From contig JAGAQH010000029.1 of assembly GCA_017622815.1 (NCBI GenBank), positions 124,001-188,000 of the forward strand: 64,000 nt of DNA, read 5' to 3'. Source of the DNA: Bacteroidaceae bacterium (GTDB taxonomy: Bacteria > Bacteroidota > Bacteroidia > Bacteroidales > Bacteroidaceae). Positions 1 to 21,125 of the stretch are shown here, one piece after another. The notes under the pieces were generated by a model. It did not search any database and was not told the DNA's origin. It worked only from the letters and a program-made list of their open reading frames with translations. Numbering within the stretch: the first letter of the stretch is position 1; each line of letters starts with the position of its first letter. A program made the position numbers and the translations under genes.

Positions 1-550
1 TGGTATGTGTGAGGTCCGCGGTAACCTGCTCCACATTGCCGAGAATGGCCGGCAGGTGGGGATCGTTGACCAGACGGTTGAGCGATGTGACGAGCGTATC
101 CAGTTTGTCTGCTATGGCTATCACCTTGGGCATTATATTCTCGGCCGTGGACATAAGTCCGGCTTCGTTGTTGCCGGGGATGGTGTCGCCATAATGATAC
201 ACCTTGTCGGAGATGGGAGCCGGTGTTATGTTCATGGTACAGCCGCCCATAAGTCCGGCATCCAGGGTAACATCCGTACCGTGGCAGAGAATCAGATTGG
301 GGTCCACACTGATTTCGATGAGCACATTGCCGGGATTCTTGTAGTCATAGAGGATGTCGGACACGATGCCCACCTCGAAACCATCGGCATACACCACACT
401 GCTCTTTGCCAGTCCCTTGGCATTGGCAAATCGCACGTAGTATTCATTGTTGGTATTGAAGAGGGCCTTGCCCTTCAGAAAGTTTATTCCAAAGAAAAGC
501 GCCACCAGGGCTGCTATACCCACCAGACCTATTTTATATTCCTTCTTCAT
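1..550 (-). CDS. MCE/MlaD family lipid-transport protein (3' end cut by window)
   Basis: The minus-strand frame starts at ATG 548-550 and runs off the left edge. It begins MKKEYKIGLVGIAALVALFF, one N-terminal membrane anchor with no cleavage site, followed by an MCE domain (the sequence YYVRFANAKGLAKSSVVYADG and the GNVLIEISVDPN strand). MlaD-type proteins form rings in the periplasm that move phospholipids between membranes, usually with an MlaE permease and MlaF ATPase. The murein amidase gene lies just upstream on the same strand, 38 bases away, so the two are probably co-transcribed. The pairing of an amidase with an MCE gene is familiar in Bacteroidetes. The C-terminal helical part is outside the window. 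Confidence 0.85.
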   Translation of the reverse strand, partial: MKKEYKIGLVGIAALVALFFGINFLKGKALFNTNNEYYVRFANAKGLAKSSVVYADGFEVGIVSDILYDYKNPGNVLIEISVDPNLILCHGTDVTLDAGLMGGCTMNITPAPISDKVYHYGDTIPGNNEAGLMSTAENIMPKVIAIADKLDTLVTSLNRLVNDPHLPAILGNVEQVTADLTHT

Positions 551-588
551 AATTCCTGTTTTTTATGTGACTGACCGTAATGTCCGGC

Positions 589-1347
589 CTACTTGTTCCT
601 CTTGTAATATGCCTGGAAAGCATTGTATATGCTTCTGGCCAACTGTTTCTGGCCCCACTCGCTTGCCAGGAACTTCTCTTCCTGGCGGTTGTTGATGAAG
701 CCGAGTTCTATGAGCACGCTGGGCATGCTGACCTCGCGCAACACAAGGAAACCTGCCTGATGCACTCCCTTGTTCACCCGCTTTGCCGTAGTGGCAAACT
801 GCTTCTGCACCAAACGGGCGAAATCCACGCTGGAGGCCATATACTGGTCCTGCATGAACTCGAAGATAATGTACGACTCGCTGCTATTGGGGTCAAAGTC
901 CTCGTACGTCTGCTTGTAATTGGTCTCCAGTGTGATGACCGAGTTCTCCCGTTTGGCAACGGCCAGGTTGTCTGCCGCACGGTGCATACCCAGGGTGTAG
1001 GTCTCCGTTCCCTGCGCCGTGGTGCCCTTGCGACCGGCGGCGGTACTGTTGGTGTGGATGGAGATGAACAGGTCGGCCTTTGCCTTGTTGGCTATGGCGG
1101 CCCTGCGTCCGAGTTCCACAAAAGTGTCCTTGCTACGGGTATATACCACCCTTATACCAGGATAGTTCTTCTTGATGAGGTCGCCCAAGGCAAGTGCAAC
1201 CTTCAGGTTTATGTCCTTCTCGCGTGAGATACGGCCTACGGCTCCCACGTCCCTGCCCCCATGACCCGGATCTATGACCACGGTGAATGCAAAGGCCTGG
1301 ACACAACACATGAGAACCGAGAATATAATCGTCAGGAAGCGCTTCAT
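589..1347 (-). CDS. N-acetylmuramoyl-L-alanine amidase (AmiC-type)
   Basis: A 252-residue protein with a signal peptide (MKRFLTIIFSVLMCCVQAFA). The Amidase_3 fold follows at once: VVIDPGHGGRDVGA holds the first zinc histidine (about residue 29), SREKDINLKV the zinc glutamate, LFISIHTN the second histidine, and VLIELGFINN the catalytic glutamate. It cuts the bond between MurNAc and the stem peptide in the periplasm, for daughter-cell separation or wall turnover. A longer frame reaches 1413, but the ATG at 1347 is chosen because the signal peptide begins there and a -7 box lies just upstream. No LysM or AMIN domain is present. Confidence 0.93.
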   Translation of the reverse strand: MKRFLTIIFSVLMCCVQAFAFTVVIDPGHGGRDVGAVGRISREKDINLKVALALGDLIKKNYPGIRVVYTRSKDTFVELGRRAAIANKAKADLFISIHTNSTAAGRKGTTAQGTETYTLGMHRAADNLAVAKRENSVITLETNYKQTYEDFDPNSSESYIIFEFMQDQYMASSVDFARLVQKQFATTAKRVNKGVHQAGFLVLREVSMPSVLIELGFINNRQEEKFLASEWGQKQLARSIYNAFQAYYKRNK

Positions 1348-1373
1348 TTCTCCAGTGCGGTTTATCAGTGGTG

Positions 1374-1381
1374 CAAAGTTA
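1374..1381 (-). promoter_or_regulatory. -7 box for the amidase gene
   Basis: Reads TAACTTTG on the minus strand, matching the Bacteroidetes -7 consensus TAnnTTTG, 27 bases before the amidase start. Confidence 0.6.
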
Positions 1382-1475
1382 GCAAATAATATGGATACAC
1401 GTGCGTACGGCAATCACTTTTCATTAAAAAAAATAAAATTAACATGACCTTAAGTTCGGGTATACATATTTTTTA

Positions 1476-1483
1476 TATATTTG
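1476..1483 (+). promoter_or_regulatory. -7 box for the CotH gene
   Basis: TATATTTG on the plus strand, 48 bases before the CotH gene start. A convincing -33 element is not visible. Confidence 0.55.
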
Positions 1484-1530
1484 CATGCGAGAAAAGGAAA
1501 ATACAGCCACAACACCTAAACAAACTAATT

Positions 1531-4131
1531 ATGAAGCAAATCTTTACCCTAATTCTCATGAGCATGCTATCCTGTCTTGGAGCGCAGGCCGAAGAGACAC
1601 GTGGAGTTGCAAACTCCATCCGCTACATAACCCTGAAAGACGGGCAGGTGATTGCAATCCCCGAGAAGTACATACTTGGAGAGAGCCAGGAGAACGGTAT
1701 CTGTACCCTCACACTGGAGGGCGACACCACCTTTGTCTATGGCGTGGACAACGTTGCCAACATTAGCGACAAGTACGAGGGCGAGAAGGCCAGCCTTCTT
1801 ACATTCGCCTTCACACATGCCGACAACGACCAGGTATACAAGGACGTCACCGCCACCATTACCGAGAACGGCGACACAATAGTGGTCAATGCCGACGTGC
1901 CGGTATTGGGCAAGCGCCTGCGCCCCAGCTTCACACTGAGCGAGGGTGCCTCCATGTGGGTAGACGGCGAACAGCAGGTAAGCGGACAGAGCAGCCACAG
2001 ATATACATCTCCTGTCGTCTATACTCTGGCCCAACCCAAGCATTGGATTTATGAAGTGAAGACCATCATGCCTGAGGAAGAGCCTTCCACATCGGATGAA
2101 TGGGAAAAGACAAAGATTGATATCTCTGCAAGCACAAGCACCAATGCGCCCAGCAACTACAACGATGAAGGGATTGAAAATCTTTGGGACGGCAACACAG
2201 GAACCTTCTTCCATTCCACTTGGGGTAGTGGTACATACACAAAACTCTACTGGCAGGATGGCGGAACCTGGGGGGATGGCATCACAGAGTGGCCTTACCT
2301 GGAAATCCAGTTGGCAGAGGCCCTGGAGAACTTCTGTTTTTCATATACTACATCCGGACAGAACAACCGTTTCCCGCAAGGATGGTACATCAGTGCCAAG
2401 AACACCACAACCGGAACATGGGAATTCGTAGGTACACTGAATTCTGCCGATGACGCCCTTCCACAGACAAACCTGACAGAATATACGTCCCCAGTCTATG
2501 CACTCGGAGCAGACTATGACGCTATACGCATAGAACTGACTCAAGCATCCTACAAGAACTATATGGTTCTCTCCGAAATCTCCGTCTTCAGTTGCAAGAA
2601 AGCAGAAACAGAGCCTGCAGAACCCGAAGAGCCAACAATCGTAAAGGGTTTCAAGCCTTTCGGACGCCCATGCAAGGTGAACGTGAAGTATCTCACCGAC
2701 CATGCCTACGGCACATACAAGATTCCCACCATCTATATCACCTTCGGCGAAGACACCACCAAATGGGACAACACCCAGTGGATTGGCCAGACCCTGCCGG
2801 ACGGCACAAACACCAAGGAGGAATGGATTGAGGGTTGTACCTTCCAACTGGACGGTGCAGGCGTATGGCCCGACATCCCCAAGGTGGAGGGTTGCGAAGT
2901 ACGCGGACGCGGCAACAGCAGCTGGACATGGTCACCCAATAGCAAGAACCCCTTCCGTATCAAATTCCCCAAGAAGGAAAAGCAGTCCCCCTTCAACCTG
3001 ACCAAGGACCGCCAGTGGGTGTTCATTGCCAACAAGCAGAGCGGTTCAATGACCTCCAACTCCATTGCACAGAAAATTGCCGCCATGGTTGATGCCGAGG
3101 CACTGTGCCACATGATTCCCGTGGACATTTACATCAACGGACACTACCGTGGTTCATACTGCTTCACCGAGAAGATCGGCATTGCCGACAATAGCGTGGC
3201 CATAGACGAGACAACAGGATGCCTGCTGGAATTGGACGACTACTACGACGAGCTGTACAGATTCCGCGACGACACATACAACCTGCCTGTCAATGTGAAG
3301 GATCCAGACTTCAGCGAGGAGGACGAAGAGCGTGTCATCACATACACTGACATACAGAATTCCATCAACAGCCTTACCGCTACCCTCGATGCCGGAGGAA
3401 ACATCGCCGGAAAGATTGACATGGAGTCTTGGGCAAAGTTCTGGCTTGTCAACGACCTCGTCCGCAACGTGGAAACACACCATCCCAAGAGCTGCTACCT
3501 CTTCAACGAGAACCCTGCCGAGGGAGAGAAGTGGAAGTTCGGCCCGGCATGGGACTTTGACTGGGCATTCGGTTACGAGGACACCAAGGACTACTTCATC
3601 TATGGTGCCGACATGGATCTGTTCAGCGGCGTGTACTATAACAACAAGGCCGGCTACCAGTTCTACAACGCCCTGCGCAACAGTGCTGCCGGCAAGCGTG
3701 CTTACTACAGGGAGTGGGTCAACTTCATGGCAGAAGGCCGCCTGCAGGAACTTCTGGAGTATATCGACGACTACACTGAGTTTGCCATGCCCAGTATCCT
3801 GCACAACAACGATGCCAACGTGAATGAAAAGAATAATCACGACTATGAGCAAATTGCCAAGTTAAGCAAGAAATGGCTGACAACACGTGCCAACTACATC
3901 TTCAACTCACTACAGAAGTACGACATATCTCCGGACATTGTCACCCCCGAGGATTACGGACAGCCCACAGAGATAGAGGAGACAAATGCCGACGAGGACC
4001 TGAACCGTCCCGTGGACGTATACACCATCGGAGGTGTGCTGGTACGCAACAAAGTTCCCTATCTGAACGCACTCGGCGGTCTTGAACCCGGTCTCTACAT
4101 CATAGACGGCAAGACTGTTCTGGTACAGTAA
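1531..4131 (+). CDS. CotH-kinase family surface protein with discoidin-like domain
   Basis: An 866-residue secreted protein. The signal peptide is MKQIFTLILMSMLSCLGAQA, and the start is set at this ATG because the longer frame from 1444 has no signal-like N-terminus. Residues about 190-360 resemble an F5/8 type C (discoidin) carbohydrate-binding domain. Residues about 440-780 are a CotH domain with GRGNSSWTW, NPFRIKFPKK and WDFDWAFG. CotH proteins are atypical protein kinases or structural surface proteins; the substrate here is unknown. The C-terminus (IGGVLVRN...GLYIIDGKTVLVQ) resembles the short C-terminal motif of many Prevotella secreted proteins, perhaps for type IX secretion. It is monocistronic, with a promoter in front and a strong terminator behind. 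Confidence 0.85.
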   Translation: MKQIFTLILMSMLSCLGAQAEETRGVANSIRYITLKDGQVIAIPEKYILGESQENGICTLTLEGDTTFVYGVDNVANISDKYEGEKASLLTFAFTHADNDQVYKDVTATITENGDTIVVNADVPVLGKRLRPSFTLSEGASMWVDGEQQVSGQSSHRYTSPVVYTLAQPKHWIYEVKTIMPEEEPSTSDEWEKTKIDISASTSTNAPSNYNDEGIENLWDGNTGTFFHSTWGSGTYTKLYWQDGGTWGDGITEWPYLEIQLAEALENFCFSYTTSGQNNRFPQGWYISAKNTTTGTWEFVGTLNSADDALPQTNLTEYTSPVYALGADYDAIRIELTQASYKNYMVLSEISVFSCKKAETEPAEPEEPTIVKGFKPFGRPCKVNVKYLTDHAYGTYKIPTIYITFGEDTTKWDNTQWIGQTLPDGTNTKEEWIEGCTFQLDGAGVWPDIPKVEGCEVRGRGNSSWTWSPNSKNPFRIKFPKKEKQSPFNLTKDRQWVFIANKQSGSMTSNSIAQKIAAMVDAEALCHMIPVDIYINGHYRGSYCFTEKIGIADNSVAIDETTGCLLELDDYYDELYRFRDDTYNLPVNVKDPDFSEEDEERVITYTDIQNSINSLTATLDAGGNIAGKIDMESWAKFWLVNDLVRNVETHHPKSCYLFNENPAEGEKWKFGPAWDFDWAFGYEDTKDYFIYGADMDLFSGVYYNNKAGYQFYNALRNSAAGKRAYYREWVNFMAEGRLQELLEYIDDYTEFAMPSILHNNDANVNEKNNHDYEQIAKLSKKWLTTRANYIFNSLQKYDISPDIVTPEDYGQPTEIEETNADEDLNRPVDVYTIGGVLVRNKVPYLNALGGLEPGLYIIDGKTVLVQ

Positions 4132-4150
4132 GCAAGACCATTCATACTAT

Positions 4151-4225: not shown

Positions 4226-4350
4226 GACAACAAGGACGAGTCACCGAGGGTGACAAGGGTGAGTCACCGAGGGTGACAGGGACGAGTCACCGAGGGTGAC
4301 AGGGGCGAGTCACCGAGGACAACAAGGACGAGTCACCAGGGACAACAAAA
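4226..4350. repeat. 23-bp tandem repeat, five units
   Basis: Units starting at 4238, 4261, 4284, 4307 and 4330 follow GAGTCACCGAGGGTGACAAG plus three more bases. Each of the first three units holds an inverted repeat GTCACC-GAG-GGTGAC; the last two are degenerate. The array is preceded by CCGACAACAAGG, exactly as in a second array near 23.64 kb. The rest of the 4132-4535 gap holds only the CotH terminator and no other feature I can recognise. Confidence 0.9.
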
Positions 4351-4535: not shown

Positions 4536-5564
4536 TCAGGAAAGTTTCTCCTTCAGGAAGTGACCGGTGTAACTCTGCTTGCACTGGACTATCTCTTCGG
4601 GAGTACCAAAGGCTATGAGATAACCGCCCTCTTCCCCACCCTCGGGACCCATGTCCAGAATATGGTCGGCACACTTGATGACATCCGGGTTGTGTTCGAT
4701 GATTATCAGCGTGTGGCCCTTCATCAAGAGGGCATCAAAGGCAGCAAGGAGTTTCTTTATGTCGTGGAAATGCAGGCCTGTGGTGGGTTCGTCGAAGATG
4801 AACATCGTGGGCACATGCTTGTCCATACCCAGATAGTATGCCAACTTCACACGCTGGTTCTCACCACCGGAAAGAGTGCTGCTCGACTGGCCGAGTTTGA
4901 TATATCCAAGACCCACGTCCTGCAAGGGTTTGAGCAGTCTTACAATCTTCTTCTCCTTCCATTCCGTGAAGAACTCTATGGCCTGGTTGATGGTCATGTC
5001 CAGAATGTCGTAGACGTTCTTTTCGTGGAAGCGCACCTCCAGAACCTCCTGCTTGAAGCGTTTGCCGTGGCACGACTCACATTCAAGAACAAGGTCGGCC
5101 ATGAACTGCATCTCCACGGTCACGGTGCCTTCTCCGTTGCACTCCTCGCACCTACCACCGGAGGCATTGAAACTGAAGTATGCCGCCGTGAAGCCCATCT
5201 GCTGGGCCAGTGCCTGCTGGGCAAAGAGTTTGCGGATTTCATCCCATGCCTTCACGTAGGTTACGGGATTGGAACGGGAACTCTTGCCTATGGGGTTCTG
5301 GTCCACAAACTCTATCGCCTGGATGGCATTCGTGTCGCCCTCGAGGGAAGCGAACTCGCCCGGGCGGTCGCCCACCTCGTCCAGATTGCGCTTTATGGCA
5401 TTGAACAGGATGTCGCGCACCAGACTTGACTTGCCCGAACCGGAAACACCAGTCACACAAGTCATCACGTTAAGGGGGAAGCGCACGTCTATGCCCTTGA
5501 GGTTGTTGGCACGTGCTCCACGGATTTCTATGTAGCGGTTCCACCTCCTGCGCGTCTCGGGCAC
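4536..5564 (-). CDS. uvrA: UvrA, C-terminal half (split gene)
   Basis: Matches the second ABC half of excinuclease subunit UvrA, the damage-sensing ATPase of nucleotide excision repair. Visible are Walker [14 protein letters not shown] (about residues 38-50), the zinc module CEECNGEG...CESCHGKRF (about 135-170), the ABC signature LSGGENQRVKLA (about 230) and Walker B MFIFDEPTTGLHF. The GTG at 5564 is only the first usable start. UvrA-like sequence ([16 protein letters not shown]) extends upstream in frame to about 5603, and a TGA closes the frame at 5640-5642. The N-terminal half lies just upstream in another frame. It may be made separately, made by frameshift or be inactive; see the repeat at 5614-5634. 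Confidence 0.9.
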   Translation of the reverse strand: MPETRRRWNRYIEIRGARANNLKGIDVRFPLNVMTCVTGVSGSGKSSLVRDILFNAIKRNLDEVGDRPGEFASLEGDTNAIQAIEFVDQNPIGKSSRSNPVTYVKAWDEIRKLFAQQALAQQMGFTAAYFSFNASGGRCEECNGEGTVTVEMQFMADLVLECESCHGKRFKQEVLEVRFHEKNVYDILDMTINQAIEFFTEWKEKKIVRLLKPLQDVGLGYIKLGQSSSTLSGGENQRVKLAYYLGMDKHVPTMFIFDEPTTGLHFHDIKKLLAAFDALLMKGHTLIIIEHNPDVIKCADHILDMGPEGGEEGGYLIAFGTPEEIVQCKQSYTGHFLKEKLS

Positions 5565-7567
5565 GGGGATGCTGTCCCTGCCGGAGAGGAAGTCCAGGGT
5601 GTGGGAATGGAGGGAGGTGAGAGGTGAGAGGTGAGAGCGTCAGACTCTTGAACCTGCTCATGCTCGGCTTTTTCGGACACGGCATGCCGTGTCCCTACCA
5701 TGCTCTTGCTTGCTTGCACCTTGCCGTTTTCCGTTTTCCGTTTTGACTCCGTCGAATCTGCTTCTGCTCGGCAATTCAAACAAGTTTGATTGCTCTCGCT
5801 TACTCGCAGATTTCCGTTTTCCGTTTTTATCCTTCCGTTATATACGATTTGTCCACCAAGGCGACCTGCCTCGGGACCTACGTCTATTATCCAGTCGGCT
5901 GCACGCATGATGTCCTCGTCGTGCTCCACCACCACCACGGTATTTCCAAGGTCGCGGAGTTGGTGCAGGACCTTTATAAGTCTTTCCGTGTCGCGCGAGT
6001 GCAGGCCTATGGACGGTTCGTCCAGAATGTAAAGGCTGCCCACCAGAGCCGAACCGAGCGAAGTGGCCAGGTTGATGCGCTGGCTCTCGCCGCCCGACAG
6101 GGAGTTGGACAGACGGTTGAGGGTAAGGTAGGGCAGGCCTACGTCCATCAGGAACTGGAGCCTGGACCTTATCTCCACCAGCAGGCGCATGGCTACCTTC
6201 TGCTCGTTCTCCGTGAGGTTTGACGTCAGGTCCTTGGCAAACCACTCGGACAACTTGGATATGGGCCATTCCACCAGTTCGGAGATTGTGCGTCCTGCCA
6301 CACGGACATAGTTGGCCTCGGGTTTCAGGCGACGGCCGAGGCACTTGGGGCATGTGGTCTTGCCACGGTATCTGGCAAGCATCACACGGTTCTGTATCTT
6401 GTACTGGCCGGCCTTGAGCATGTCGAAGAAGGCGTCTATTGACACCAGTCCCCACTCCTGCTCCTCGGGCGTCAGCGTCCATTCGGAGAGGGCCTTCTCG
6501 CTGGGTTTGCCATGCCAAAGCCAGTCCTTCTCGGCCTGTGTGAGTTCATAGTATGGCTTGTGCACTGGAAAACCTCGCTCGGAATTGAAGCGGATGAACC
6601 AGGTCTTCCACTCGCTCATTTTCTCGCCTCGCCAGCATTGCACGCAACCTTCATACAGGGAGAGTGCCGAATTGGGTATGACCAGGCGTTCGTCTATGCC
6701 CATTATCTTGCCGAAACCCTCGCACTCGGGGCATGCCCCCAGGGGGGAGTTGAAGGCAAAGAGTTGGTCGGTGGGTTCCTGAAACACTATGCCGTCGGCC
6801 TCGAAGCGCGAGTTGAACTTGTGCAGTATGCCGGCAGGCAGGAACCTCAGCATCATCTCGCCTCCGCCCTCGTAGAAGGCCGTCTCCACGCTGTCGGTAA
6901 GACGGGAAAGGGAGTCGTTATCGTCGCGCACCGACAGGCGGTCGATGACCAGATGCACCTCACGGGGAGTTGCGCCACTTTCCGTGGCAAGGTATTCTTC
7001 TATGGTGGTTATCTGTCCGTCCACCTCAATGCGGACGAAGCCCTGTTGCAGATACTTCTTCAGGCACTCGCGCACGTCTGCCGTGCCGTCCTCCTTACAA
7101 ATATGCATGGGGGCAAGCACCACGAAGCGAGTACCCGGGGTGTACGTCATCACGCATCTGATGACGTCCTCCACACCCTGCTTCTTCACCTCCTCGCCAC
7201 TCACAGGACTGTAGGTGCGCCCCACTCGGGCAAAGAGCATGCGCATGTATTCGTATATCTCGGTGCTGGTGCCCACGGTGGATCGCGGATTGCGGCTGCT
7301 CACCTTCTGCTCTATGGCTATGGCAGGGGGGATGCCCTTAATGAAGTCGCATTCGGGCTTGCCCATACGGCCGAGGAACTGACGGGCATAACTGGAAAGG
7401 CTTTCCACATAGCGGCGCTGACCTTCGGCATACAGTGTGTCGAAGGCAAGGCTTGACTTGCCCGAACCGGATACGCCCGTAACCACAATGAGTTTGTCGC
7501 GGGGTATCTCCACGTCTATGTTCTTCAGGTTGTTTACCCTTGCGCCTTTTATGTATATGCTTTCCAT
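5528..7567 (-). CDS. uvrA: UvrA, N-terminal half with repeat-encoded tail (split gene)
   Basis: Residues 1 to about 577 are normal Uvr[23 protein letters not shown], Walker [15 protein letters not shown] (about 33), the DNA-interaction and zinc regions ([30 protein letters not shown]), signature [16 protein letters not shown] (about 492) and Walker [16 protein letters not shown]. After IVYNG the protein leaves the family: about 90 residues come from inserted repeat DNA and end at TAG 5528-5530, out of frame with the second half. Bacteroidetes often carry a second uvrA, so a broken copy could be tolerated. All ATPase motifs of this half are intact, which suggests a recent or reversible interruption. 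Confidence 0.9.
5604..5830. repeat. Repeat cluster inserted in uvrA
   Basis: About 227 bp between the codons for UvrA IVYNG and HTLDFLSG have no UvrA counterpart. They contain a 7-bp tandem repeat, the palindrome GGACACGGCATGCCGTGTCC (5675-5694), runs of CCGTTTTCCGTTTT, and a degenerate copy of the promoter repeat (about 5770-5815). The same parts occur in intergenic DNA at 29.4-29.9, 31.0-31.2 and 34.9-35.1 kb. Confidence 0.85.
5614..5634. repeat. 3 x 7-bp tandem repeat controlling uvrA frame
   Basis: GAGGTGA occurs three times in a row (5614, 5621, 5628). On the coding strand this is CTCTCAC x3. Counting codons, a fourth copy (+7 bases, i.e. +1 mod 3), or loss of two copies, would join the two uvrA frames with no stop codon between them. 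Confidence 0.85.
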
Positions 7568-7618
7568 AACAAATTATTATTAAGGACCCTAAAGACCTTA
7601 AGGCCCCCTTTTTTGCCT

Positions 7619-9136
7619 TTACAACTTCATCTTCACACCCTTGCTCTCATTCTGCATGTGGTCGAGGGCAGTGACCACATACACGTGTCCCAGAGCATCG
7701 TCGGGCAGGTTGTAGAAGGTATTACGTGTCACCGTAACGAGATTTGCGGGGTTGTCAAGGTTTCGTTTCTCGCCCTTGCGGAAGCGATAAACGGCATACC
7801 ATACGGCCTTGTCCATGGGAGTCTTGGCCTTGGGAGCCGTCCAGAAGAGTGTGGGGCCGTCCTTCGTACCGATGATGGCCATGCGGCGGACCTTCTTGGG
7901 AGCCTTGTTGTCTATCCATGGCATCTGTGGAGCCAGGGCAGGATACTTGTGGTAATCCTCCTTGAGCATGGTGGCATAGTTGCCGGGATTGTCCACCACG
8001 GCCTTGGCATACCACTGGCAACTGCCTTCCACGCCGGGCTGGTTGCGCTGCAGGTCGTACTTGGCACGCATCTGGTGCTCGCCGGCATTGCGCAGGTCGT
8101 TGTACTTGACGGTGCGCTCCACGTCCTGACCTATGTAGAGATGTCGGCCTCCGGCATTCTCGCTCCACCACCTGATGAGGGTTTCGTAATCGGCCGTGGG
8201 ATGACCTATCTGCCAGTATATCTGCGGTATGTTGTAATCAACCCAACCTTGGCGCACCCATTCAAGCACATCGGCATAGAGGTCGTCATAGTTCTGCAAA
8301 CCTTTGGTTTCGGAACCCATAGGGTCGTTCCTCTTGTTGCGGTATATGCCGAAAGGACTTACACCGAACTTGCACCAGGGCTTCACGCTCTTGACGGATT
8401 CGTTGAGTTGCTTGATGAACTTGTTCACATTGTCGCGTCTCCAGTCGTCGCGCGACATGCCGTTGCCGTACTTCTCGTAAGAGGCATCGTCGGGGATGGG
8501 CAGACCGTTGGCGGGATAAGGATAGAAATAATCGTCGATGTGCAGACCGTCCACGTCGTAACGCTCCACAATGTCCATGGCCACACGGCAGATGTAGTCG
8601 CGGTTCTCCGGCTGGCCGGGATCGAAGAGCATCAAGCCGTCGTAATGGAAGAAGCGCTCGGGATTCTTGAAATAGGGATGCTCTGCCGACAGGGCCATAG
8701 TGCCCTTGGTCTTGGCACGGTAGGGGTTTATCCATGCGTGGCACTCCATGCCGCGGCGGTGACACTCCTCCACCATCCATGCCAGAGGGTCCCAGTAGGG
8801 TTGGGGGGCACGCCCCTGCTCTGCCGTCAGGTAGCGGCTCCAGGGTTCCATCTTGCTCTCGTACAGGGCATCGGCCTCGGCACGCACCTGGAACATGATG
8901 GCATTGATGCCGCAACGCTTCAGTTCGTCCAGTTGCATGGTCAGCGTCTTCTGCATCCTCTCGCGCCCGATACCCGTCCACTGGTTGTTGACGCACTGTA
9001 TCCAGGCACCGCGGAATTCTCGCTTGGGGTTCTGACCAAGCACCTTCACCTGTTCCTTCTCTTTCTTGGGTTGGGGAGTCTTTGCTCCGCAGACGGTTGC
9101 CATGAGCAGGGCCGCCAATATAATAATGTACTTCAT
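7619..9136 (-). CDS. GHL10-type family 10-like glycoside hydrolase, secreted
   Basis: A 505-residue protein with a short signal peptide (MKYIIILAALLMATVCGA). The catalytic region has REFRGAWIQCVNNQW near the N-terminus, NAIMFQVRAEADALY and the strand VDGLHIDDYFYPYP, all typical of the GHL10/DUF187 TIM-barrel family (YngK/YddW type). The C-terminal 100 residues (TLFWTAPKAK...WYAVYRFRKGE) look like a fibronectin III-like domain. Relatives act on cell-wall or surface glycans; the substrate is not known. The ATG at 9136 is preferred over the upstream frame because it opens the signal peptide and follows a -7 box. A second GHL10 paralogue lies at 24.5 kb. Confidence 0.88.
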   Translation of the reverse strand: MKYIIILAALLMATVCGAKTPQPKKEKEQVKVLGQNPKREFRGAWIQCVNNQWTGIGRERMQKTLTMQLDELKRCGINAIMFQVRAEADALYESKMEPWSRYLTAEQGRAPQPYWDPLAWMVEECHRRGMECHAWINPYRAKTKGTMALSAEHPYFKNPERFFHYDGLMLFDPGQPENRDYICRVAMDIVERYDVDGLHIDDYFYPYPANGLPIPDDASYEKYGNGMSRDDWRRDNVNKFIKQLNESVKSVKPWCKFGVSPFGIYRNKRNDPMGSETKGLQNYDDLYADVLEWVRQGWVDYNIPQIYWQIGHPTADYETLIRWWSENAGGRHLYIGQDVERTVKYNDLRNAGEHQMRAKYDLQRNQPGVEGSCQWYAKAVVDNPGNYATMLKEDYHKYPALAPQMPWIDNKAPKKVRRMAIIGTKDGPTLFWTAPKAKTPMDKAVWYAVYRFRKGEKRNLDNPANLVTVTRNTFYNLPDDALGHVYVVTALDHMQNESKGVKMKL

Positions 9137-9143
9137 CAAGGCA

Positions 9144-9151
9144 CAAAGATA
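9144..9151 (-). promoter_or_regulatory. -7 box for the GHL10 gene
   Basis: TATCTTTG on the minus strand, 8 bases before the ATG at 9136; the leader would be almost absent. Confidence 0.5.
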
Positions 9152-9258
9152 ACTAAATTTGTCCGATGACATGCCCGCAAAGCCTGCATTTTCCGTCAAA
9201 AAGGAGCGCACGGCCCATTTTCGTCCTGCACGTACCACGGGATTAGGGATTATTTTCG

Positions 9259-9266
9259 TACATTTG
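9259..9266 (+). promoter_or_regulatory. -7 box for slyD
   Basis: TACATTTG on the plus strand, 31 bases before the slyD start. Confidence 0.55.
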
Positions 9267-9297
9267 CACAGAAATGTACACAAAAACAACACACAAT

Positions 9298-9870
9298 ATG
9301 GAAAACCGTTATATCACAGTTCAGTACAAGTTGTATGCCCCCATGGGTGCAGAAAAGCAGATAGAATTGATTGAGGAAACACGCCCCGACATGCCCTTCC
9401 AGTTCATCAGCGGCATGGGCATGGTGCTGGAGGCTTTGGAGAACCACCTTCACCCCCTGCAAGCAGGCGAGGCTTTCAAGATTACACTCAGCGAGGACGA
9501 GGCCTATGGCCCCTACATCCCCGAGGGCGTACAGGAAGTTCCTCTGGAGGCTTTCTTCATCGAGGGCAAACTGGACACAGAACACATCTATGAGGGTGCC
9601 GTAGTGCCCCTGATGAATGCCGATGGCGAGCGCTTCAACGGCACCATTGCCGAGATAAAGGAGAAGACTGTTATCGTGGACCTCAACCACCCCTTGGCAG
9701 GCAAGGCACTGACCTTCGACGGCTCTGTAGTAGAGAACCGACCCGCCACCAACCAGGAAATCCAGGACTACCTCAACAGCCAGGGCGGTTGCGGCAGTTG
9801 TGGCGGTTGCGGAGGCGGCGATTGTGGCGGCTCCTGCGGAGAAGGCAGTTGTTGCGGAGGCTGCAACTAA
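9298..9870 (+). CDS. slyD: FKBP-type peptidyl-prolyl isomerase SlyD
   Basis: A 190-residue cytoplasmic protein. The FKBP domain is split by an insert-in-flap chaperone domain (about residues 70-130) and closes with VDLNHPLAGKALTFD. The last 30 residues are a run of Gly and Cys with about ten cysteines (GGCGSCGGCGGGDCGG and on), replacing the His-rich metal-binding tail of E. coli SlyD. SlyD proteins speed proline isomerisation and bind nickel or zinc for metalloenzyme assembly. The Cys-only tail suggests binding of a soft metal (inference). The start at 9298 is chosen from FKBP homology; the GTG/ATG codons further upstream add no recognisable sequence. Confidence 0.92.
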   Translation: MENRYITVQYKLYAPMGAEKQIELIEETRPDMPFQFISGMGMVLEALENHLHPLQAGEAFKITLSEDEAYGPYIPEGVQEVPLEAFFIEGKLDTEHIYEGAVVPLMNADGERFNGTIAEIKEKTVIVDLNHPLAGKALTFDGSVVENRPATNQEIQDYLNSQGGCGSCGGCGGGDCGGSCGEGSCCGGCN

Positions 9871-9914
9871 ACCCCTATTTATAGTTTTCCGTTTTAACCT
9901 TTCCGTTTTCACTG

Positions 9915-10988
9915 GTGAACACATTTGGCAACATATTCCGTCTAACCTCGTTCGGCGAAAGCCATGGCGAAGCCGTAGGAGGTGTCATTGATGGCATGCC
10001 GGCAGGCATTGCCGTGGACATGGACTTTATCCAGGGCGAACTGGCACGCCGTCGCCCGGGGCAGAGCCGTCTCACCACGGCACGCAAGGAGGAGGACCGC
10101 GTGGAAATCCTCAGCGGTGTCTTCGAGGGCCGTACCACGGGTTGCCCCATAGGTTTCATGGTGAGGAACACCAACCAGCACAGTTCCGACTACGAGAACA
10201 TGCGCCACGTGTTCCGTCCCTCGCATGCCGACTATACCTATACTACCAAATACGGCATACGCGACCATCGTGGCGGCGGACGCTCCTCGGCACGCGAAAC
10301 CATAAGCCGTGTCGTGGGCGGAGCCTTTGCCATGCTTGCCTTGCGTCAAGTGGGCATCAGCGTCTGCGCATATACATCCCAAGTGGGCGACATTGCCCTG
10401 CCCGGAACTTATCAGGATTACGACCTCGGACGTGCCGAGGAAAATCCCGTCCGTTGTCCCGACCCCGACACGGCACAGCGCATGGCGGACCTCATCATGG
10501 AGGTAAAGGGTAAGGGCGACACCATCGGAGGCATCATCACATGCGTTGTAAAGGGGTGTCCCGCAGGTCTTGGCGAACCTTGCTTCGGCAAGTTGCATGC
10601 CGCCCTGGGAAGTGCCATGCTCAGCATAAATGCCGTAAAGGGATTTGAATACGGCATGGGGTTCTCCGGCATGAACCTGCGAGGAAGCCAGCAGAACGAC
10701 ATCTTCATCCCCGACGGCAAGGGTGGCATCACCACCCAAACCAACCGTAGTGGCGGTATACAGGGAGGCATCTCCAACGGACAGGACATCTACTTCCGCG
10801 TTGCCTTCAAACCCGTCGCCACCATCCTGATGGAACAACCCACCGTAACCGAGGACGGCCAAACCACCACTCTGAAAGCCCGCGGGCGCCACGACGCATG
10901 CGTGCTCCCCCGTGCTGTCCCTGTGGTAGAAGCCATGACGGCAATGACCATCCTCGACTATTACCTGCTTAATCAAGCACACAAATAA
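9915..10988 (+). CDS. aroC: Chorismate synthase
   Basis: A 357-residue protein that converts 5-enolpyruvylshikimate-3-phosphate to chorismate, the last shared step of aromatic amino-acid synthesis, with reduced FMN. Signature blocks are present: [20 protein letters not shown] near the N-terminus, [36 protein letters not shown] and the C-terminal [18 protein letters not shown]. The start codon appears to be GTG at 9915, since [17 protein letters not shown] is the conserved beginning and no ATG is near. It lies 44 bases behind slyD on the same strand, so they may share a transcript. Confidence 0.95.
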
Positions 10989-11076
10989 CACATCAACCAA
11001 CCCTATTATTAACACAAACACATCTGCCTATGAAGCATAGCGTATAACACGATACGCACACTATAAGACATATCGG

Positions 11077-11252
11077 AAAAGCGTTTTAGCTTTATTCTGC
11101 TATTCAAGAAGTTTGGCGACTAATATGAAAGCAGCAAGAATACGGTTGAAATGCTCACGCTATATGGCGTGGGCTTTTGGTTATTCTGCTGCTGGGTTAC
11201 GCCAAACACCCTTGAATAGGAATAAACTCTAAAAGTTCCCACGCTTTTTTGT
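11077..11252. ncRNA. Long imperfect hairpin, candidate structured RNA or small mobile element
   Basis: The left arm (from AAAAGCGTTTTAGC, then TATTCAAG, GTTTGGCG, AGCAGCAAGAATA) pairs outward-in with the right arm (TTATTCTGCTGCT, CGCCAAAC, CTTGAATAG, AATAAactCTAAAA, ACGCTTTTTT). The centre is a small hairpin, CACGC-tatatg-GCGTG. The total span is about 175 bases with bulges, more like a folded RNA than a simple terminator. It fills most of the 10989-11338 gap; I see no ORF in it. Its strand and function are not known. A miniature transposable element is the main alternative. Confidence 0.5.
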
Positions 11253-11338
11253 GTGCGTACCCTAACCCTCCAAACAGGAACGACGGAGTAACCGAAAAGC
11301 CGTAAAGTGAGTAGGGAATATTATAAGCAAACATGTAA

Positions 11339-11749
11339 ATGATTAAGACACTTTCAAAATATTTGAGCATTACCATTGCATCTATTCTTATGTTAACCTT
11401 TTGCGCTTGCGGTAATGACGAAGTAGGCGAAGATACAGTTACAAAATCTCTGCTTATCGGAAAATGGAAAACTGGCGCTGATCACTTTACCACTATAATA
11501 GAACTGAAAGCAAACGGCACTGGCACATATGTTGAAAATTATAACGATGGTTATGTGAGCGAAACTGGCAAGGGAGTATTCATGTACACCTATGATGAGG
11601 GAACAGGAATATTAGTAGCGAAAATAATATCAGGAGATGATGCTGGCGGATATATTAACGTCTTAATTGAGTTCATCAACAAGAACACCATTAAGACCTA
11701 TGACCTGAATAGCAATGGTAACGAACTCATTTTTGTTCGAGTGAAATAG
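11339..11749 (+). CDS. Small lipocalin-like lipoprotein, unknown function
   Basis: A 136-residue protein with a lipoprotein signal: a hydrophobic stretch (ITIASILMLTFCAC) ending in a lipobox cysteine at about residue 24. After a short linker comes LLIGKWKT, the usual opening of the small lipocalin-like domains of Bacteroidetes lipoproteins, then alternating beta strands to FVRVK. It would be anchored to the periplasmic or outer face of the membrane. No partner gene is evident. The region looks more AT-rich than the neighbours and follows the long hairpin, so it may be accessory DNA. Confidence 0.7.
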   Translation: MIKTLSKYLSITIASILMLTFCACGNDEVGEDTVTKSLLIGKWKTGADHFTTIIELKANGTGTYVENYNDGYVSETGKGVFMYTYDEGTGILVAKIISGDDAGGYINVLIEFINKNTIKTYDLNSNGNELIFVRVK

Positions 11750-11773
11750 CCTCCAAACGGAACAATACTGACG

Positions 11774-11817
11774 AGGATGAAAATGGTGTGAGTCGTGGCT
11801 CACACCATTTTCATCCT
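11774..11817. terminator. Strong hairpin after lipoprotein gene
   Basis: A perfect 19-bp stem (AGGATGAAAATGGTGTGAG and its complement) with a 6-base loop, 24 bases past the lipoprotein stop. There is no long T run, so termination is likely but not certain. Confidence 0.65.
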
Positions 11818-11858
11818 TCAGCATACAGGAAACAATCCTATGTGCATAGACAAAACAC

Positions 11859-11900
11859 GACGAGCGGAATCCCCTATAATAAGGTATGATTCCGCTCGTC
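11859..11900. terminator. Second hairpin between convergent genes
   Basis: A 13-bp perfect stem (GACGAGCGGAATC / GATTCCGCTCGTC) with a 16-base loop, between the lipoprotein gene and the oppositely directed flotillin-like gene; probably that gene's terminator. Confidence 0.6.
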
Positions 11901-11954
11901 ATATCATCTATAACTATTACTTTTAATGTCTGTATGCCATGACCACTATAAGTC

Positions 11955-12515
11955 TTAGTGCTTGGTTCTAACCTGCGTCAAGTCAATGCTGACGATGTGC
12001 AGGCCTAACTTGTTTAACTCTGCCTCAACGTTCTCCTGGAGCGTGTCCAAGAACTTGTTTCTGAAAGCGCTGAAACCTTCCATACTTGTTGTGGCAAGAA
12101 GTCTCCGCAACTGGGCAAGAAGGATGTCGTGTGCCAATGATTGGATACGCTCCTCTGATGCATTCAACAGATGCTTGGCGGCATTGGGCATCAGTTCGGG
12201 CTCTGTGCTGATGACCACGGACATTCTTGCGGAAGCATCCACATGCATGCCGTCGCCCGACATGGCATCCCTGAGTTCTGCACCAAGGATGACGGGAGTC
12301 AATGACAGATACGAGTATTCCTGGATGAAAGGCCATATAAAAACACCACCCCTATTTAGGCACCGGATGCCGTCTGGTGTTGTTACTCCACATACCACCA
12401 ATATCTTATCTGCCGGGCATCGGCGGTAACGACTAAGCAAGGCAATATTGAGCAGCACACAAACAACAACACCTACCATTATAAGATAAATAGGTTCTAT
12501 CATAATGATTGACAT
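11955..12515 (-). CDS. Shortened flotillin-like (SPFH) protein
   Basis: A 186-residue protein. An N-terminal membrane helix (IYLIMVGVVVCVLLNIALL) is followed by SRYRRCPADKILVVCG, a typical flotillin start, then the SPFH domain (GGVFIWPFIQEYSYLSLTP, SARMSVVISTEPEL). It stops at LHIVSIDLTQVRTKH, where full-length flotillins (about 500 residues) continue into the alanine/glutamate-rich coiled coil. Flotillins organise membrane microdomains by oligomerising through that coil, so this is either a truncated gene or a minimal SPFH protein. No remnant of the missing part is seen downstream. It lies just downstream of the porin gene, 14 bases after its stop, on the same strand. Confidence 0.7.
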   Translation of the reverse strand: MSIIMIEPIYLIMVGVVVCVLLNIALLSRYRRCPADKILVVCGVTTPDGIRCLNRGGVFIWPFIQEYSYLSLTPVILGAELRDAMSGDGMHVDASARMSVVISTEPELMPNAAKHLLNASEERIQSLAHDILLAQLRRLLATTSMEGFSAFRNKFLDTLQENVEAELNKLGLHIVSIDLTQVRTKH

Positions 12516-12529
12516 TTAATGTATGCACT

Positions 12530-13705
12530 TTAGAATCTGATGTATGCCTGTGTCCAAAGTTGGTGATAGTCCTTGTCAACACCGGAGGCATTGTTGTGGC
12601 AATAGTTCCACTGGAGTTGGAACTGGAGGTTCTTGTGGGGGCGTGCCTGAAGACCGAGGGAGTAGATGGAATTGAGGGAGGTCCAGGTGGACATGTCCTT
12701 GCGGTAGGCATCGTAACCGAGATTCACACGAAGCCAGCGCCATGTGGGGATGCCCATGCGGATGTACCATGCATCGGACTTCTGGCCAAGGCCATGAGTG
12801 TCGGCACCGTCAGCATAGATGTTGCGGGCATACTCGGCACGGGCAGAGAAGAGTCCTTCGTAGGAAACACCTGCCGCCCAACGCTTGAAGTAGTTGCTTT
12901 GTGCTCCGTCGAAGAACGAACCGCTCCATCCGAAGACGCCGACATACAGACCCTTGAGGGGTTGGAGTTGCACGGTGGCGATGTAGTCCTTCTCCTTGTC
13001 CTTGTCGGAGGTGTTGATGCCCTGGCCATTGTAGATACCTGCCTGATAATGCAGGAGATAGTGCTGCGTCTTGCCCACCTTGAAGGCATCACCATAAATC
13101 TGTACGCCAAGGTCGCGGCCGCCACTATTTGCCGCACCCTGATACAGGTCACCGCCCATGCCGGTAAAGTGCTTGGTGAGTTGGGTATAGTCGCCCGATG
13201 CTATATCCCAAGGGTTCATGGGGTTCTCAAAGGTGAAGCATCGTTTGTACTCACCCAACTTTATGCCCAGAGGTGCCCACTTCTGCCATGAAATGAAGGC
13301 ATCGATGACACGGGCGCCGTTCTTGCTGCCCGGCTCACCGGAGACATTCATCTGCACGCGGTACTTGAAGTCCTTCAGCACAGTGCCGTCCAGATACAGA
13401 CGCAGGTAGCGCAAACCGAAACCGTCGCCTCCGTTCTTGCCTTCCTGGCTGTTGTACTTGTATGTACCCACGATGTAGCCGCCGAACTTGGGGACGGTGA
13501 CATAATCGGCTATCTTCCATTTCTTCTTGCCCTCCTGAGGCTTCTCGTTCTGCTTGTCTTGGTATTGGGTGATTTTCTCGGTGATGTAGTTCTGCAGGGA
13601 GTGGTCGTAGCCGTCCTGGTACTCCTCGTTCATGGCCAACTGGCCATTGGAGTTAAGTGAAAAGGCGGTGGCCAAAAGGGCCAGTGCCATGTGTCTTGCT
13701 TTCAT
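12530..13705 (-). CDS. Porin of the OprO/OprP (phosphate-selective porin) type
   Basis: A 391-residue outer-membrane protein: signal peptide MKARHMALALLATAFSLNSNG, a short charged helical segment, then repeated amphipathic strands rich in Tyr, Trp and Gly (LRYLRLYLDGTVLKDFKYRVQMNVSG, AFISWQKWAPLGIKLGEYK), ending in an aromatic residue (QAYIRF), as expected for BAM insertion. The family includes phosphate- and polyphosphate-selective porins; substrate specificity cannot be read from sequence. The flotillin-like gene starts 14 bases downstream. A -7 box lies 35 bases upstream. Confidence 0.8.
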   Translation of the reverse strand: MKARHMALALLATAFSLNSNGQLAMNEEYQDGYDHSLQNYITEKITQYQDKQNEKPQEGKKKWKIADYVTVPKFGGYIVGTYKYNSQEGKNGGDGFGLRYLRLYLDGTVLKDFKYRVQMNVSGEPGSKNGARVIDAFISWQKWAPLGIKLGEYKRCFTFENPMNPWDIASGDYTQLTKHFTGMGGDLYQGAANSGGRDLGVQIYGDAFKVGKTQHYLLHYQAGIYNGQGINTSDKDKEKDYIATVQLQPLKGLYVGVFGWSGSFFDGAQSNYFKRWAAGVSYEGLFSARAEYARNIYADGADTHGLGQKSDAWYIRMGIPTWRWLRVNLGYDAYRKDMSTWTSLNSIYSLGLQARPHKNLQFQLQWNYCHNNASGVDKDYHQLWTQAYIRF

Positions 13706-13739
13706 AGTTATGAGAGTGTTTTTTGTTACATTGCAGACA

Positions 13740-13747
13740 CAAAGATA
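13740..13747 (-). promoter_or_regulatory. -7 box for the porin gene
   Basis: TATCTTTG on the minus strand, 35 bases before the porin start. Confidence 0.6.
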
Positions 13748-13852
13748 ATATTATTTAACGATTATTAAGGTGCATTTAGGACTTTTTTTGTACCCTTGGC
13801 AACATGTCTAAGGCACTTTCGCCCGGAAATGCCAAATTAAAGCAGGCATTAT

Positions 13853-13883
13853 TTTGTATTTCGCCCGCTTATTCGTACCTTTG
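13853..13883 (+). promoter_or_regulatory. lysS promoter (-33 TTTG, -7 TACCTTTG)
   Basis: TTTG at 13853-13856, 19-base spacer, TACCTTTG at 13876-13883, 33 bases before the lysS start. The spacer end (CGCCCGCTTATTCG) resembles that of the dispersed promoter repeat. Confidence 0.7.
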
Positions 13884-13915
13884 TGCGTGAAACTATAAAT
13901 ATAAATAATGTTAAT

Positions 13916-15511
13916 ATGAGCGTACAAGAATTGAGTGAACAGGAGATAGTGCGTCGTGGCAACCTTCAGCAGATGCGTGACCTGGGCATTGACCCATACC
14001 CTGCTGCCGAGTATCCCACCGATGCATTCTCAACAGATATCAAGGCGGAGTTCGTTGACCTGCCCACAATGAAGAACGAGCAGGGCGAGGACGTGCCTAC
14101 ACCCGCCACCCCCGAGAACAGCCGCATGGTGTGCGTGGCCGGCCGTATGATGAGCCGCCGCATTATGGGCAAGGCCAGTTTCGTGGAACTGATGGACAGC
14201 AAAGGCCGCATACAGGTGTATGTCACACGCGATGCCCTCTGCCCCAATGCCGAGGATACCACCATGTACAACACCGTGTTCAAGAAGTTGCTGGACCTTG
14301 GCGACTTCATCGGCGTGAAGGGTTATGTGTTCCGCACCAAAACTGGCGAGATAAGCATCCACTGTATGGAACTGACCGTATTGGCAAAGAGCCTGCGCCC
14401 CCTGCCCGTGGTGAAGACCGACTCTGAGGGCAACGTATTCGATGCTTTCTCCGACCCCGAACTCCGTTTCCGCCAGCGCTACGTGGACCTCATCGTGAAC
14501 GAGGGTGTGAAGGAGACTTTCCTGAAGCGTACCAAGGTGATCAGCACCCTGCGCCAGTGCCTGGACGAGGCCGGTTACACCGAGGTGGAGACTCCAATCC
14601 TGCAGAGCATTGCCGGTGGTGCAAGCGCACGCCCCTTCATCACTCACCACAATAGCCTGGACATAGACCTGTACTGCCGTATAGCCACCGAGTTGTACCT
14701 GAAGCGCCTCATCGTGGGCGGTTTCGAGGGTGTGTACGAGATCGGCAAGAACTTCCGCAACGAGGGTATGGACAAGAACCACAACCCCGAGTTCACCTGC
14801 ATGGAACTTTACGTCCAGTACAAGGACTACAACTGGATGATGTCCTTCACCGAGAAGGTGCTGGAGCGCATCTGCATAGCCGTGAACGGCAAGCCCGAGA
14901 CAGAGATTGACGGCAAGGTAATCTCCTTCAAGGCACCCTTCCGCCGTCTGCCCATTCTGGAGGCCATCAAGGAAAAGACCGGCTACGACCTGGAGGGCAT
15001 GAGCGAGGACGAGATGCGCGAGGTGGCAAAGAAGTGCGGTGTGGAGGTTGACTCCACCATGGGCAAGGGCAAGTTGATTGACGAAATCTTCGGCGAGACC
15101 TGCGAGGGCACTTTCATCCAGCCCACCTTCATCACCGACTATCCCATAGAGATGTCTCCCCTCACCAAGAAGCACCGCACAAAGCCCGGGCTGACCGAGC
15201 GCTTCGAACTGATGGTGAACGGCAAGGAACTGGCCAACGCATACTCCGAGTTGAACGACCCCATCGACCAGGAAGAGCGCTTCCGCGAACAGATGCGCCT
15301 GGCCGACAAGGGCGACGACGAGGCGATGATCATCGACCAGGACTTCCTCCGCGCCCTGCAGTATGGTATGCCTCCCACTAGCGGTATCGGCATAGGCATT
15401 GACCGTCTGGTTATGCTCATGACGGGCAAGCCCTTCATCCAGGAAGTACTCTTCTTCCCCCAGATGAAGCCCGAGAAGGCCGCCCCCAAGCAGGATGCCG
15501 AGGAGGCATAA
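13916..15511 (+). CDS. lysS: Lysyl-tRNA synthetase, class II
   Basis: A 531-residue cytoplasmic enzyme that charges tRNA-Lys. An N-terminal OB-fold anticodon-binding domain (about residues 55-170; [23 protein letters not shown]) precedes the class II core: motif 1 [11 protein letters not shown], motif 2 [20 protein letters not shown] and motif 3 [15 protein letters not shown]. The length fits the bacterial family. The ATG at 13916 is chosen; the GTG at 13883 overlaps the -7 box and cannot be the start. gpsA follows after a 111-base repeat-rich gap. Confidence 0.96.
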
Positions 15512-15529
15512 CCCCCAAACACAATCAAC

Positions 15530-15602
15530 ATCCTTAGGGTCCCCCAAGACCCTAAAGACCTTAAAGACCCTAAGGACTCTAAAGACCCCAAGGTCCACAA
15601 AA
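15530..15602. repeat. Short-period repeat ACCCTAAAG in lysS-gpsA gap
   Basis: Five or six imperfect copies of a 9-10-base unit (GACCCTAAAG, GACCTTAAAG, GGACTCTAAAG) in tandem. A shorter stretch of the same sequence (GGACCCTAAAGACCTTAAGG) lies at 7584-7603, just upstream of uvrA. Confidence 0.75.
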
Positions 15603-15622
15603 GATTAAACGTCAGAAAGAGC

Positions 15623-16612
15623 ATGATAGGTACAATAGCAGTAATGGGAGGTGGCAGTTGGGCCACGGCCATAGCCAAGATATTGCTGGAAAGGAACGAA
15701 AGGATATGGTGGTACCTCCGTCGCGACGACCGCATAGAGGACTTCAAGCGTCTGGGACACAACCCCGCATACCTGACCAGCGTACATTTCGACGTGAACC
15801 GCATCACCTTCTCTTCAGACATCAACGAGGTGGTGCGCAACTGCCAGACACTGGTGTTCGTGACGCCCTCGCCCTACCTGAAGGGACACCTGAAGAAACT
15901 GAAGGTGCGCCTGAGCGACAAGTTCCTGGTAACGGCCATCAAGGGTATCGTGCCCGACGAGAACCTTATCTGTTCGGAATACTTCCACCAGGTCTATAAT
16001 GTGCCCGACGAGAATCTGGCCGTCATAGGCGGACCGAGCCATGCCGAGGAGGTGGCGCTGAACAGGCTCACATACCTGACCATCGGCTGTACCGACCTGG
16101 ACAAGGCACAGGCCTTTGCCAAGTGCATGGAGAGCCACTACGTGAAGACCAAGGTGTCGCAGGATGTAGTGGGCATAGAATATGCCAGCGTGCTGAAGAA
16201 CGTGTACAGTATCGCATCTGGCATCTGCCACGGCCTCAAGTATGGCGACAACTTCCAAGCAGTGCTCATCTCCAATGCCCTGCAGGAGATGCAACGCCTG
16301 CTCACCGCCGTGTTCCCCCTGGACAGAAGCATCATAGACAGCGTGTATTGCGGTGACCTGCTGGTAACAGGCTACTCCAACTTCTCCAGAAACCGTGTCT
16401 TCGGCACCATGATAGGCAAGGGCTACTCCGTGAAGAGCGCCCAACTGGAAATGGAGATGATAGCCGAGGGCTACTTCGGCACCAAGTGTATGAAGGACAT
16501 CAACCGCCACCTGCACGTGAACATGCCCATTCTGGATTCTGTCTACAACATCCTCTACGAGCGCATCAGTCCCAACATCGAAGTGAAACTCTTGTCCGAG
16601 GCTTTCAGATAG
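15623..16612 (+). CDS. gpsA: Glycerol-3-phosphate dehydrogenase, NAD(P)+
   Basis: A 329-residue cytoplasmic enzyme reducing dihydroxyacetone phosphate to sn-glycerol-3-phosphate for phospholipid synthesis. The N-terminal Rossmann motif is GGGSWATAIAKILLE; the catalytic lysine lies in IEYASVLKNVYSIASGICHGLKYGDN (about residues 185-210), and a substrate-binding RNRVFG-like segment (NFSRNRVFGTMIGKG) is near residue 255. The ATG at 15623 directly precedes IGTIAVMGGG, the family start. The order lysS-gpsA-pgi is common in Bacteroidales. Confidence 0.95.
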   Translation: MIGTIAVMGGGSWATAIAKILLERNERIWWYLRRDDRIEDFKRLGHNPAYLTSVHFDVNRITFSSDINEVVRNCQTLVFVTPSPYLKGHLKKLKVRLSDKFLVTAIKGIVPDENLICSEYFHQVYNVPDENLAVIGGPSHAEEVALNRLTYLTIGCTDLDKAQAFAKCMESHYVKTKVSQDVVGIEYASVLKNVYSIASGICHGLKYGDNFQAVLISNALQEMQRLLTAVFPLDRSIIDSVYCGDLLVTGYSNFSRNRVFGTMIGKGYSVKSAQLEMEMIAEGYFGTKCMKDINRHLHVNMPILDSVYNILYERISPNIEVKLLSEAFR

Positions 16613-16625
16613 TACGGAAAACGCC

Positions 16626-16720
16626 TCGTGTTGCGAGGGGCATCACAACACGTTGCGAAGGACCTAACAATACGTTGCGAAGGACCTAACAATACGTTGT
16701 GCGAGGTCTCACAATACGGA
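16626..16720. repeat. 22-bp tandem repeat between gpsA and pgi
   Basis: CAATACGTTGCGAAGGACCT plus two bases, repeated with period 22 in about four increasingly degenerate units. Related words (AACACGTTGC) recur at 36.40-36.46 kb upstream of the AICAR transformylase gene. Confidence 0.8.
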
Positions 16721-16796
16721 GCCAGAATCCACGCCCCATACCGTCACAAGGCAGACGTAACATAAGATTACAAACAACTAAACATACAAACACAAA

Positions 16797-18131: not shown

Positions 18132-18145
18132 TACAGGAACATTCG

Positions 18146-18889: not shown

Positions 18890-18903
18890 AAAAGCAGACA
18901 ATC

Positions 18904-19521: not shown

Positions 19522-19525
19522 AAAG

Positions 19526-19568
19526 AAGATGGCGCATGCAGGAAACGTTCTCCTTCATGCGCCATCTT
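19526..19568. terminator. Terminator after pgi operon
   Basis: A 13-bp stem AAGATGGCGCATG / CATGCGCCATCTT with a 17-base loop, just after the acetyltransferase stop and facing the convergent lipoprotein gene. Confidence 0.75.
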
Positions 19569-19590
19569 TATTACTCTAAATAGGTATGCC

Positions 19591-20148: not shown

Positions 20149-20196
20149 AGTATCGCTGTTCTTCCTACGTCGTAACTGTTTCCGGAAAAAGGTCTG

Positions 20197-21096: not shown

Positions 21097-21125
21097 CTTC
21101 TTACTTTTTACTTAATTAAGCGATG

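Follow-up and report, generated by a model that had tools for sequence, protein, structure and literature searches.

Interspersed palindromic and heptad repeats in the inter-ABC linker of a split uvrA paralog, with in-frame counterparts in related species

The window, that is, the whole 64,000-nucleotide stretch of Bacteroidaceae DNA analysed here, belongs to a draft genome of 42 contigs and 88% completeness (G000) and carries a uvrA-type gene that is read in two frames (Table 1). Both ABC ATPase domains, the UvrA interaction domain and the DNA-binding domain are present across the two halves, all above their Pfam cut-offs, and each half covers its own part of the TIGR00630 profile, which bears out an earlier reading of the DNA by itself (hereafter the sequence-only reading) in which the motifs of both halves were held to be intact. 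Neither half scores as a single-protein member of TIGR00630, each falling below the cut-off of 729.8 bits. Half 1 can be read without interruption from 7567 until its frame meets a stop at 5530-5528. The half 2 frame becomes open at 5639, directly after the stop codon 5642-5640, and ends with the stop codon 4538-4536; the two open frames share 109 nt and differ by 2 modulo 3. Through the repeat cluster that lies between the halves, the half 1 frame has no stop, and the other two frames have three and four. From 5645 to 5480, the only start codons in the half 2 frame are a GTG at 5564, which overlaps the end of half 1, and a GTG at 5486.

Table 1. Coordinates of the split uvrA paralog and of the repeats in its linker (window positions)
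Feature	Position	Strand	Remarks
uvrA-type gene in two frames	7567-4536	minus	broken in the inter-ABC linker by interspersed repeats
uvrA paralog half 1, conserved core of 573 aa (ABC-I, UvrA interaction and DNA-binding domains)	5849..7567	minus	TIGR00630 positions 2-571, 614 bits
uvrA paralog half 2 (ABC-II), 342 aa counted from GTG, in the other frame	4536..5564	minus	TIGR00630 positions 602-923, 453 bits
inter-ABC linker, anchors AGRLGG to GARANNL	5517..5848	minus	332 nt, 2 modulo 3
heptad array GAGGTGA x3.4, likely place of frame loss	5614-5637		24 nt, 100% match; start of frame overlap
palindrome GGACACGGCATGCCGTGTCC, core of the second module	5675..5694		103 places in the genome at <=2 mismatches
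heptad array CCGTTTT x3.0 (AAAACGG on the coding strand)	5724..5744		period-7 run
repeat module, palindromic core AATCAAACTTGTTTGAATT (coding strand) between constant arms	5755..5812		near-identical copy in mfd; in frame in L012
second heptad array TTTCCGT x2.4	5811..5827		array end is the edge common with the sister species

The cluster between the ABC halves consists, as the sequence-only reading had proposed, of repeats of intergenic type, and it is repeat DNA spread through the genome: a 241-nt stretch of it gave 95 BLAST matches in its own genome (E up to 10, self included). Its modular part (5650-5812) belongs to a family found at no fewer than 27 places (the window and loci L039-L083), in which constant arms TGCGAGTAAGCGAGAGC ... 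GCCGAGCGGAAGCAGATTC enclose palindromic cores that can be exchanged and come in at least five sequences; AAAACGG heptads often lie next to them. Because it is a palindrome, GGACACGGCATGCCGTGTCC is counted equally on both strands. The string CGGAAAACGGAAAACGG occurs in five of the 101 genomes of the genus (G000, G095, G061, G064 and G094) and is absent from G004. The copy most similar to the module of the window, with 99% identity over 98 nt and one base different, lies in the mfd gene of the same genome (G000:C2:54453-54550). Perfect period-7 runs of at least 21 nt number three in the window vs none in 20 simple base shuffles. The GAGGTGA array, announced as three units, is present as 3.4 units without a mismatch, and GAGGTGAGAGGTGA has a single exact occurrence in the genome, at the linker.

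The passage from one frame to the other has to lie between 5639 and about 5600, a stretch of which this array fills 24 nt. By arithmetic only, the two frames would coincide at a GAGGTGA count of 1 modulo 3; with an offset of 2 modulo 3 between them, the sequence-only reading was right that four units, or one, would join the frames. The gain in length that it gave for the joined protein, 75-80 residues, needs correcting to nearer 65 when set against a linker of 45-48 residues.

Against Rfam, the region 5400-6000 gave two matches with E <1, neither of which came near its gathering score, and no family above that threshold. The RNA fold of the cluster is modest (z -2.15). Perfect stems of at least 9 occur in 9 of 83 linkers vs 15 of 830 control windows, and stems of at least 8 in 22 of 83 vs 61 of 830; because control windows also score, invaded species were not counted from stems. 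REP elements go with Y1 transposases, and such an enzyme was considered as the source of the palindromes; PF01797 gave no match in the 88%-complete genome, in a search whose control was positive in 5 of 14. Four repeat strings occurred in none of the papers searched, and none of those papers combined uvrA, phase variation, a tandem repeat and a mutator.

To place the broken frame among relatives, we compiled two overlapping sets of loci, one from the genus and one wider (genome_contigs), with L084 (taken to be G095) and L091 (taken to be G061) among the loci in both; the records of these two are metagenome bins from roe deer and yak colon. A record of the window's own species was not returned from genome_contigs, a collection that may omit such records. 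Half 1 was matched in 100 of the 101 genus genomes at E<=0.001, in some of them via other ABC proteins or the other uvrA only, and one locus was taken from each of 90. Left out were genomes with partial matches starting at contig position 3 (G026, G047, G092), those with only the other uvrA (~43%) or absent from the listing (G005, G038, G048, G053, G057), two with weak matches (G002, G009) and one with none (G072); a second copy in G086 (C63) ends at a contig edge. The anchor pattern is missing in seven of the 90 loci (L166, L169, L202, L205, L207, L209, L210), leaving 83 that were scored. The paralog stands in a single frame in 82 of these 83, the window being the sole exception, and in those 82 the linker measures 135-387 nt, always a multiple of 3. 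A single open frame holds the two Walker A motifs in 86 of 90 loci, the misses being the window and three loci at contig ends (L026, L169, L210). The wider set agrees: both halves share one frame in 79 of 80 loci (70 by two Walker A motifs, 9 by Walker A or LSGGE), and the remaining one, L105, is interrupted by a contig end. No scored relative in either set has a split paralog without a contig-end cut.

Linker length varies in both sets. Within the genus it spans 45-129 residues, with the window taken as 110; in the wider set, 34 of 52 scored loci have a linker of 44-45 residues and the other 18 one of 46-115, a further 18 of the 70 placed loci having given no length by the anchor pattern. Besides the window's species, four or more have interspersed repeats in frame in the paralog linker, and in one of them the module is that of the window. 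In that instance (L012, from G064) the module is read in the same frame as in the window and is accompanied by other modules, which recur in the in-frame repeat linker of L011 (G061); at the linker end that carries GAGGTGA in the window, L012 has an in-frame heptad of 5.3 units and of another sequence. With the L012 linker as query, G064 yielded 87 matches (self included), G061 113 and G095 58. In these two relatives, L011 and L012, the gene encodes what had been envisaged earlier for the window, an undivided UvrA whose long linker derives from repeats; the window's own frame is broken. In the sister species (G095; locus L010) the flanks are 95-96% identical, but the insert is shorter and, AAAACGG units apart, unlike the window's in sequence; it lacks the GAGGTGA array. 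More distantly, the G085 linker holds a different inverted-repeat element (92 matches in G085, self and both strands included), and that of G096 a third kind of repeat (14 matches, self included). Since different repeat families occupy the linkers of different species, in-frame capture has taken place more than once. When the in-frame L091 protein was modelled with AlphaFold2, the mean pLDDT was 82.2, with values <50 at residues 586-655, inside its 115-residue linker; this is consistent with a disordered and tolerant linker. In a distant species, the UvrA linker (L219, 1504-1614) is an in-frame inverted-repeat element with a 34-nt perfect stem.

The same repeats enter a second repair gene. The mfd of the window's genome reads the module in frame within an open frame of 1188 residues, and in a different reading frame from that used in the uvrA paralog of the same genome. 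Across three species (L226, L227, L228), mfd carries in-frame cassettes at one site, and these differ between sister species; the mfd genes of the sister G095 and of G061 have other modules there, also in frame. The two outgroups, G004 and G094, have no repeat at the site, and in G064 (69% complete) an mfd match was not found. Beyond these genes, the open frame of a DEAD-box helicase (L082) reads through a repeat copy near its C-terminus, and the L076 protein, by eye presumably a membrane-type, PspC-like protein, contains a heptad-like peptide, QTENEERKTENGG, in its interior that seems to be in frame. An unsystematic look at 27 other places of the repeat brought up no further listed open frame with evident homology on both sides.

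The sequence-only reading had asked whether the genome holds a second uvrA, and it does: contig C37 of G000 encodes a complete copy in an open frame of 943 aa, which at 1293 bits exceeds the TIGR00630 cut-off. Loss of the paralog therefore need not create a mutator. Among the best 30 of 101 genomes, the linker of this complete uvrA is 45 residues long in 28 copies and 48 in one, with one unscored. Some more distant copies, outside those best 30, have open frames of 993-1168 residues. In G046, G026, G015, G060 and others, matches to the complete uvrA break near query residue 440 and the open frames extend to 993-1068 residues, so that in more distant species the gene seems to carry an insert at another site.

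Both halves of the paralog are conserved between the window and its sister, with a dN/dS of 0.068 in half 1 and of 0.055 in half 2. On the window branch, half 1 has 8 synonymous and 3 non-synonymous changes and half 2 has 9 and 2; on the sister branch, the counts are 10 and 5 for half 1 and 11 and 4 for half 2, with 16 and 26 changes unplaced between the branches. Nothing here hints at decay, which leaves three options: a recent break, one that is not real, or two halves that both work.

Taken together, we favour, at a probability of about 0.58, a reading in which repeats were recurrently captured in frame at a tolerant uvrA linker, followed here by a recent loss of frame, most likely through a 7-nt unit. 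The inter-ABC linker of the paralog would be a tolerated landing site for palindromic and heptad repeats; the ancestor of a small clade would have captured such repeats in frame, and other species of the genus would have captured others. The inserts would lengthen a flexible, probably disordered linker and leave both ATPase domains untouched, and the modules within them appear to be replaced quickly. The window's insert would then have lost its frame recently, within the last ~40 nt before half 2, most probably by gain or loss of one 7-nt unit, and the outcome would be two half-proteins, or one half and a silent remnant. We infer unit gain or loss as the simplest cause because the array fills 24 nt of the stretch in which the frame must change; so short a heptad array is no proof of slippage, and any other indel in that stretch would be equivalent. 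Since the sister linker is other sequence apart from the shared AAAACGG units, no in-frame precursor carrying exactly this cluster is seen, and the in-frame ancestor is an inference.

The frame loss is known from one draft assembly, and an error of assembly or consensus, with an in-frame count and an intact gene in the true genome, could also account for it. Such an error is in keeping with a draft of 42 contigs and 88% completeness, with insert stretches of up to 98 nt that are 99% identical to other places in the genome, with the intact frame of all 82 other scored loci, and with the description of interspersed repeats as breaking short-read assemblies (PMC5771137). We nevertheless consider it unlikely, though it deserves to be taken seriously: the array is merely 24 nt long, the insert is one base off its nearest copy, in mfd, and the contig extends over 245 kb.

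Against the favoured picture of a single recent frame loss, the locus could also be a contingency locus in which frequent gain and loss of units switches UvrA between full-length and split states. The array has the form expected of a phase-variable locus, a 7-nt unit, not a multiple of 3, within an open frame. Both halves are conserved, heptads recur in the linker of the clade (with the 5.3-unit heptad of L012 at the same end), and from the mfd of G000 to that of G095 the length of an AAAACGG array changes by about one unit, beside an exchanged module. A precedent is the 6-bp tandem repeat of Salmonella mutL, whose slippage has been proposed to modulate mutability (PMC2955026). The window's array is likewise a short tandem repeat within a DNA-repair gene, but with a 7-bp unit rather than 6, in an excision-repair paralog rather than a mismatch-repair gene, beside a second uvrA, and in one genome. 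Heptanucleotide repeats of Haemophilus influenzae, as described in PMC2651432, have mostly 13-38 units (one has 1-7) and vary between strains, and one 14-unit case lies inside an open frame with a frameshift; the unit length is the same here, but there are 3.4 units, in a single genome. Against a switch, the sister lacks the GAGGTGA array, the array is short and alone of its kind in the genome, the mfd heptad next to the AAAACGG array counts 3.1 units in G000 and G095 alike, the genome has a complete uvrA, and one locus among 83 is out of frame. A switch of this kind is therefore improbable in our estimate, and the hypermutable mutator-control device put forward by the sequence-only reading finds no support, the array being absent from the sister, GAGGTGAGAGGTGA being unique in the genome and a complete uvrA being at hand.

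A third possibility takes the split itself as functional, with half 2 re-initiating at GTG 5564 near the stop of half 1 and the two products associating. The placement of that GTG, with GTG 5486 the only other start in the interval, and the constraint on both halves speak for it; low dN/dS fits two working half-proteins. A recent break predicts the same low values, however, and a split gene is seen in no scored relative free of a contig-end cut, so we regard this arrangement as very doubtful. Equally far-fetched, in our view, would be to see the heptad-bounded palindromic cassettes of the uvrA paralog and mfd as frame-contingency devices, by which slippage and cassette exchange would stochastically break and restore repair proteins in the population.

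Recurrent in-frame capture, the favoured reading, recalls the Rickettsia palindromic elements (RPEs), short palindromic interspersed repeats that are described as lying in frame in unrelated coding genes and are reported to encode a conserved peptide (PMC10969869). By that description, the palindromic interspersed repeats in frame in the uvrA of L012 and in mfd (L226-L228) resemble RPEs, the frame in the window's uvrA having been lost. They differ in occurring in another organism and in having no single conserved peptide, as uvrA and mfd of G000 read the same module in different frames; the modules here also lie between heptad arrays, have exchangeable cores and differ between sister species. 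The window's palindromes are short and high-copy, as are REP elements (PMC3733652). Unlike REP elements, they sit within the uvrA and mfd frames, and a PF01797 Y1 transposase was not found in the genome at its present completeness.

The locus shows a repair-protein linker that has taken up repeat DNA in frame more than once in a gut Bacteroidaceae-type lineage, with repeat families that differ by species. Such linkers offer a natural series for how intergenic repeats become protein and for how often the gene breaks in the process. The split also carries a warning for annotation: whether the gene is called a pseudogene or a switch hangs on the number of 7-nt units in a single draft assembly.

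Elsewhere in the window, a 23-nt tandem repeat of the ACAAGGGCGAGTCACCGAGGGTG type occurs at two places (4226-4341 and 23635-23716), and in comparison with contig C11 of the sister G095, positions 1-4133 are inverted relative to 4543-23541, at 88.7% identity.
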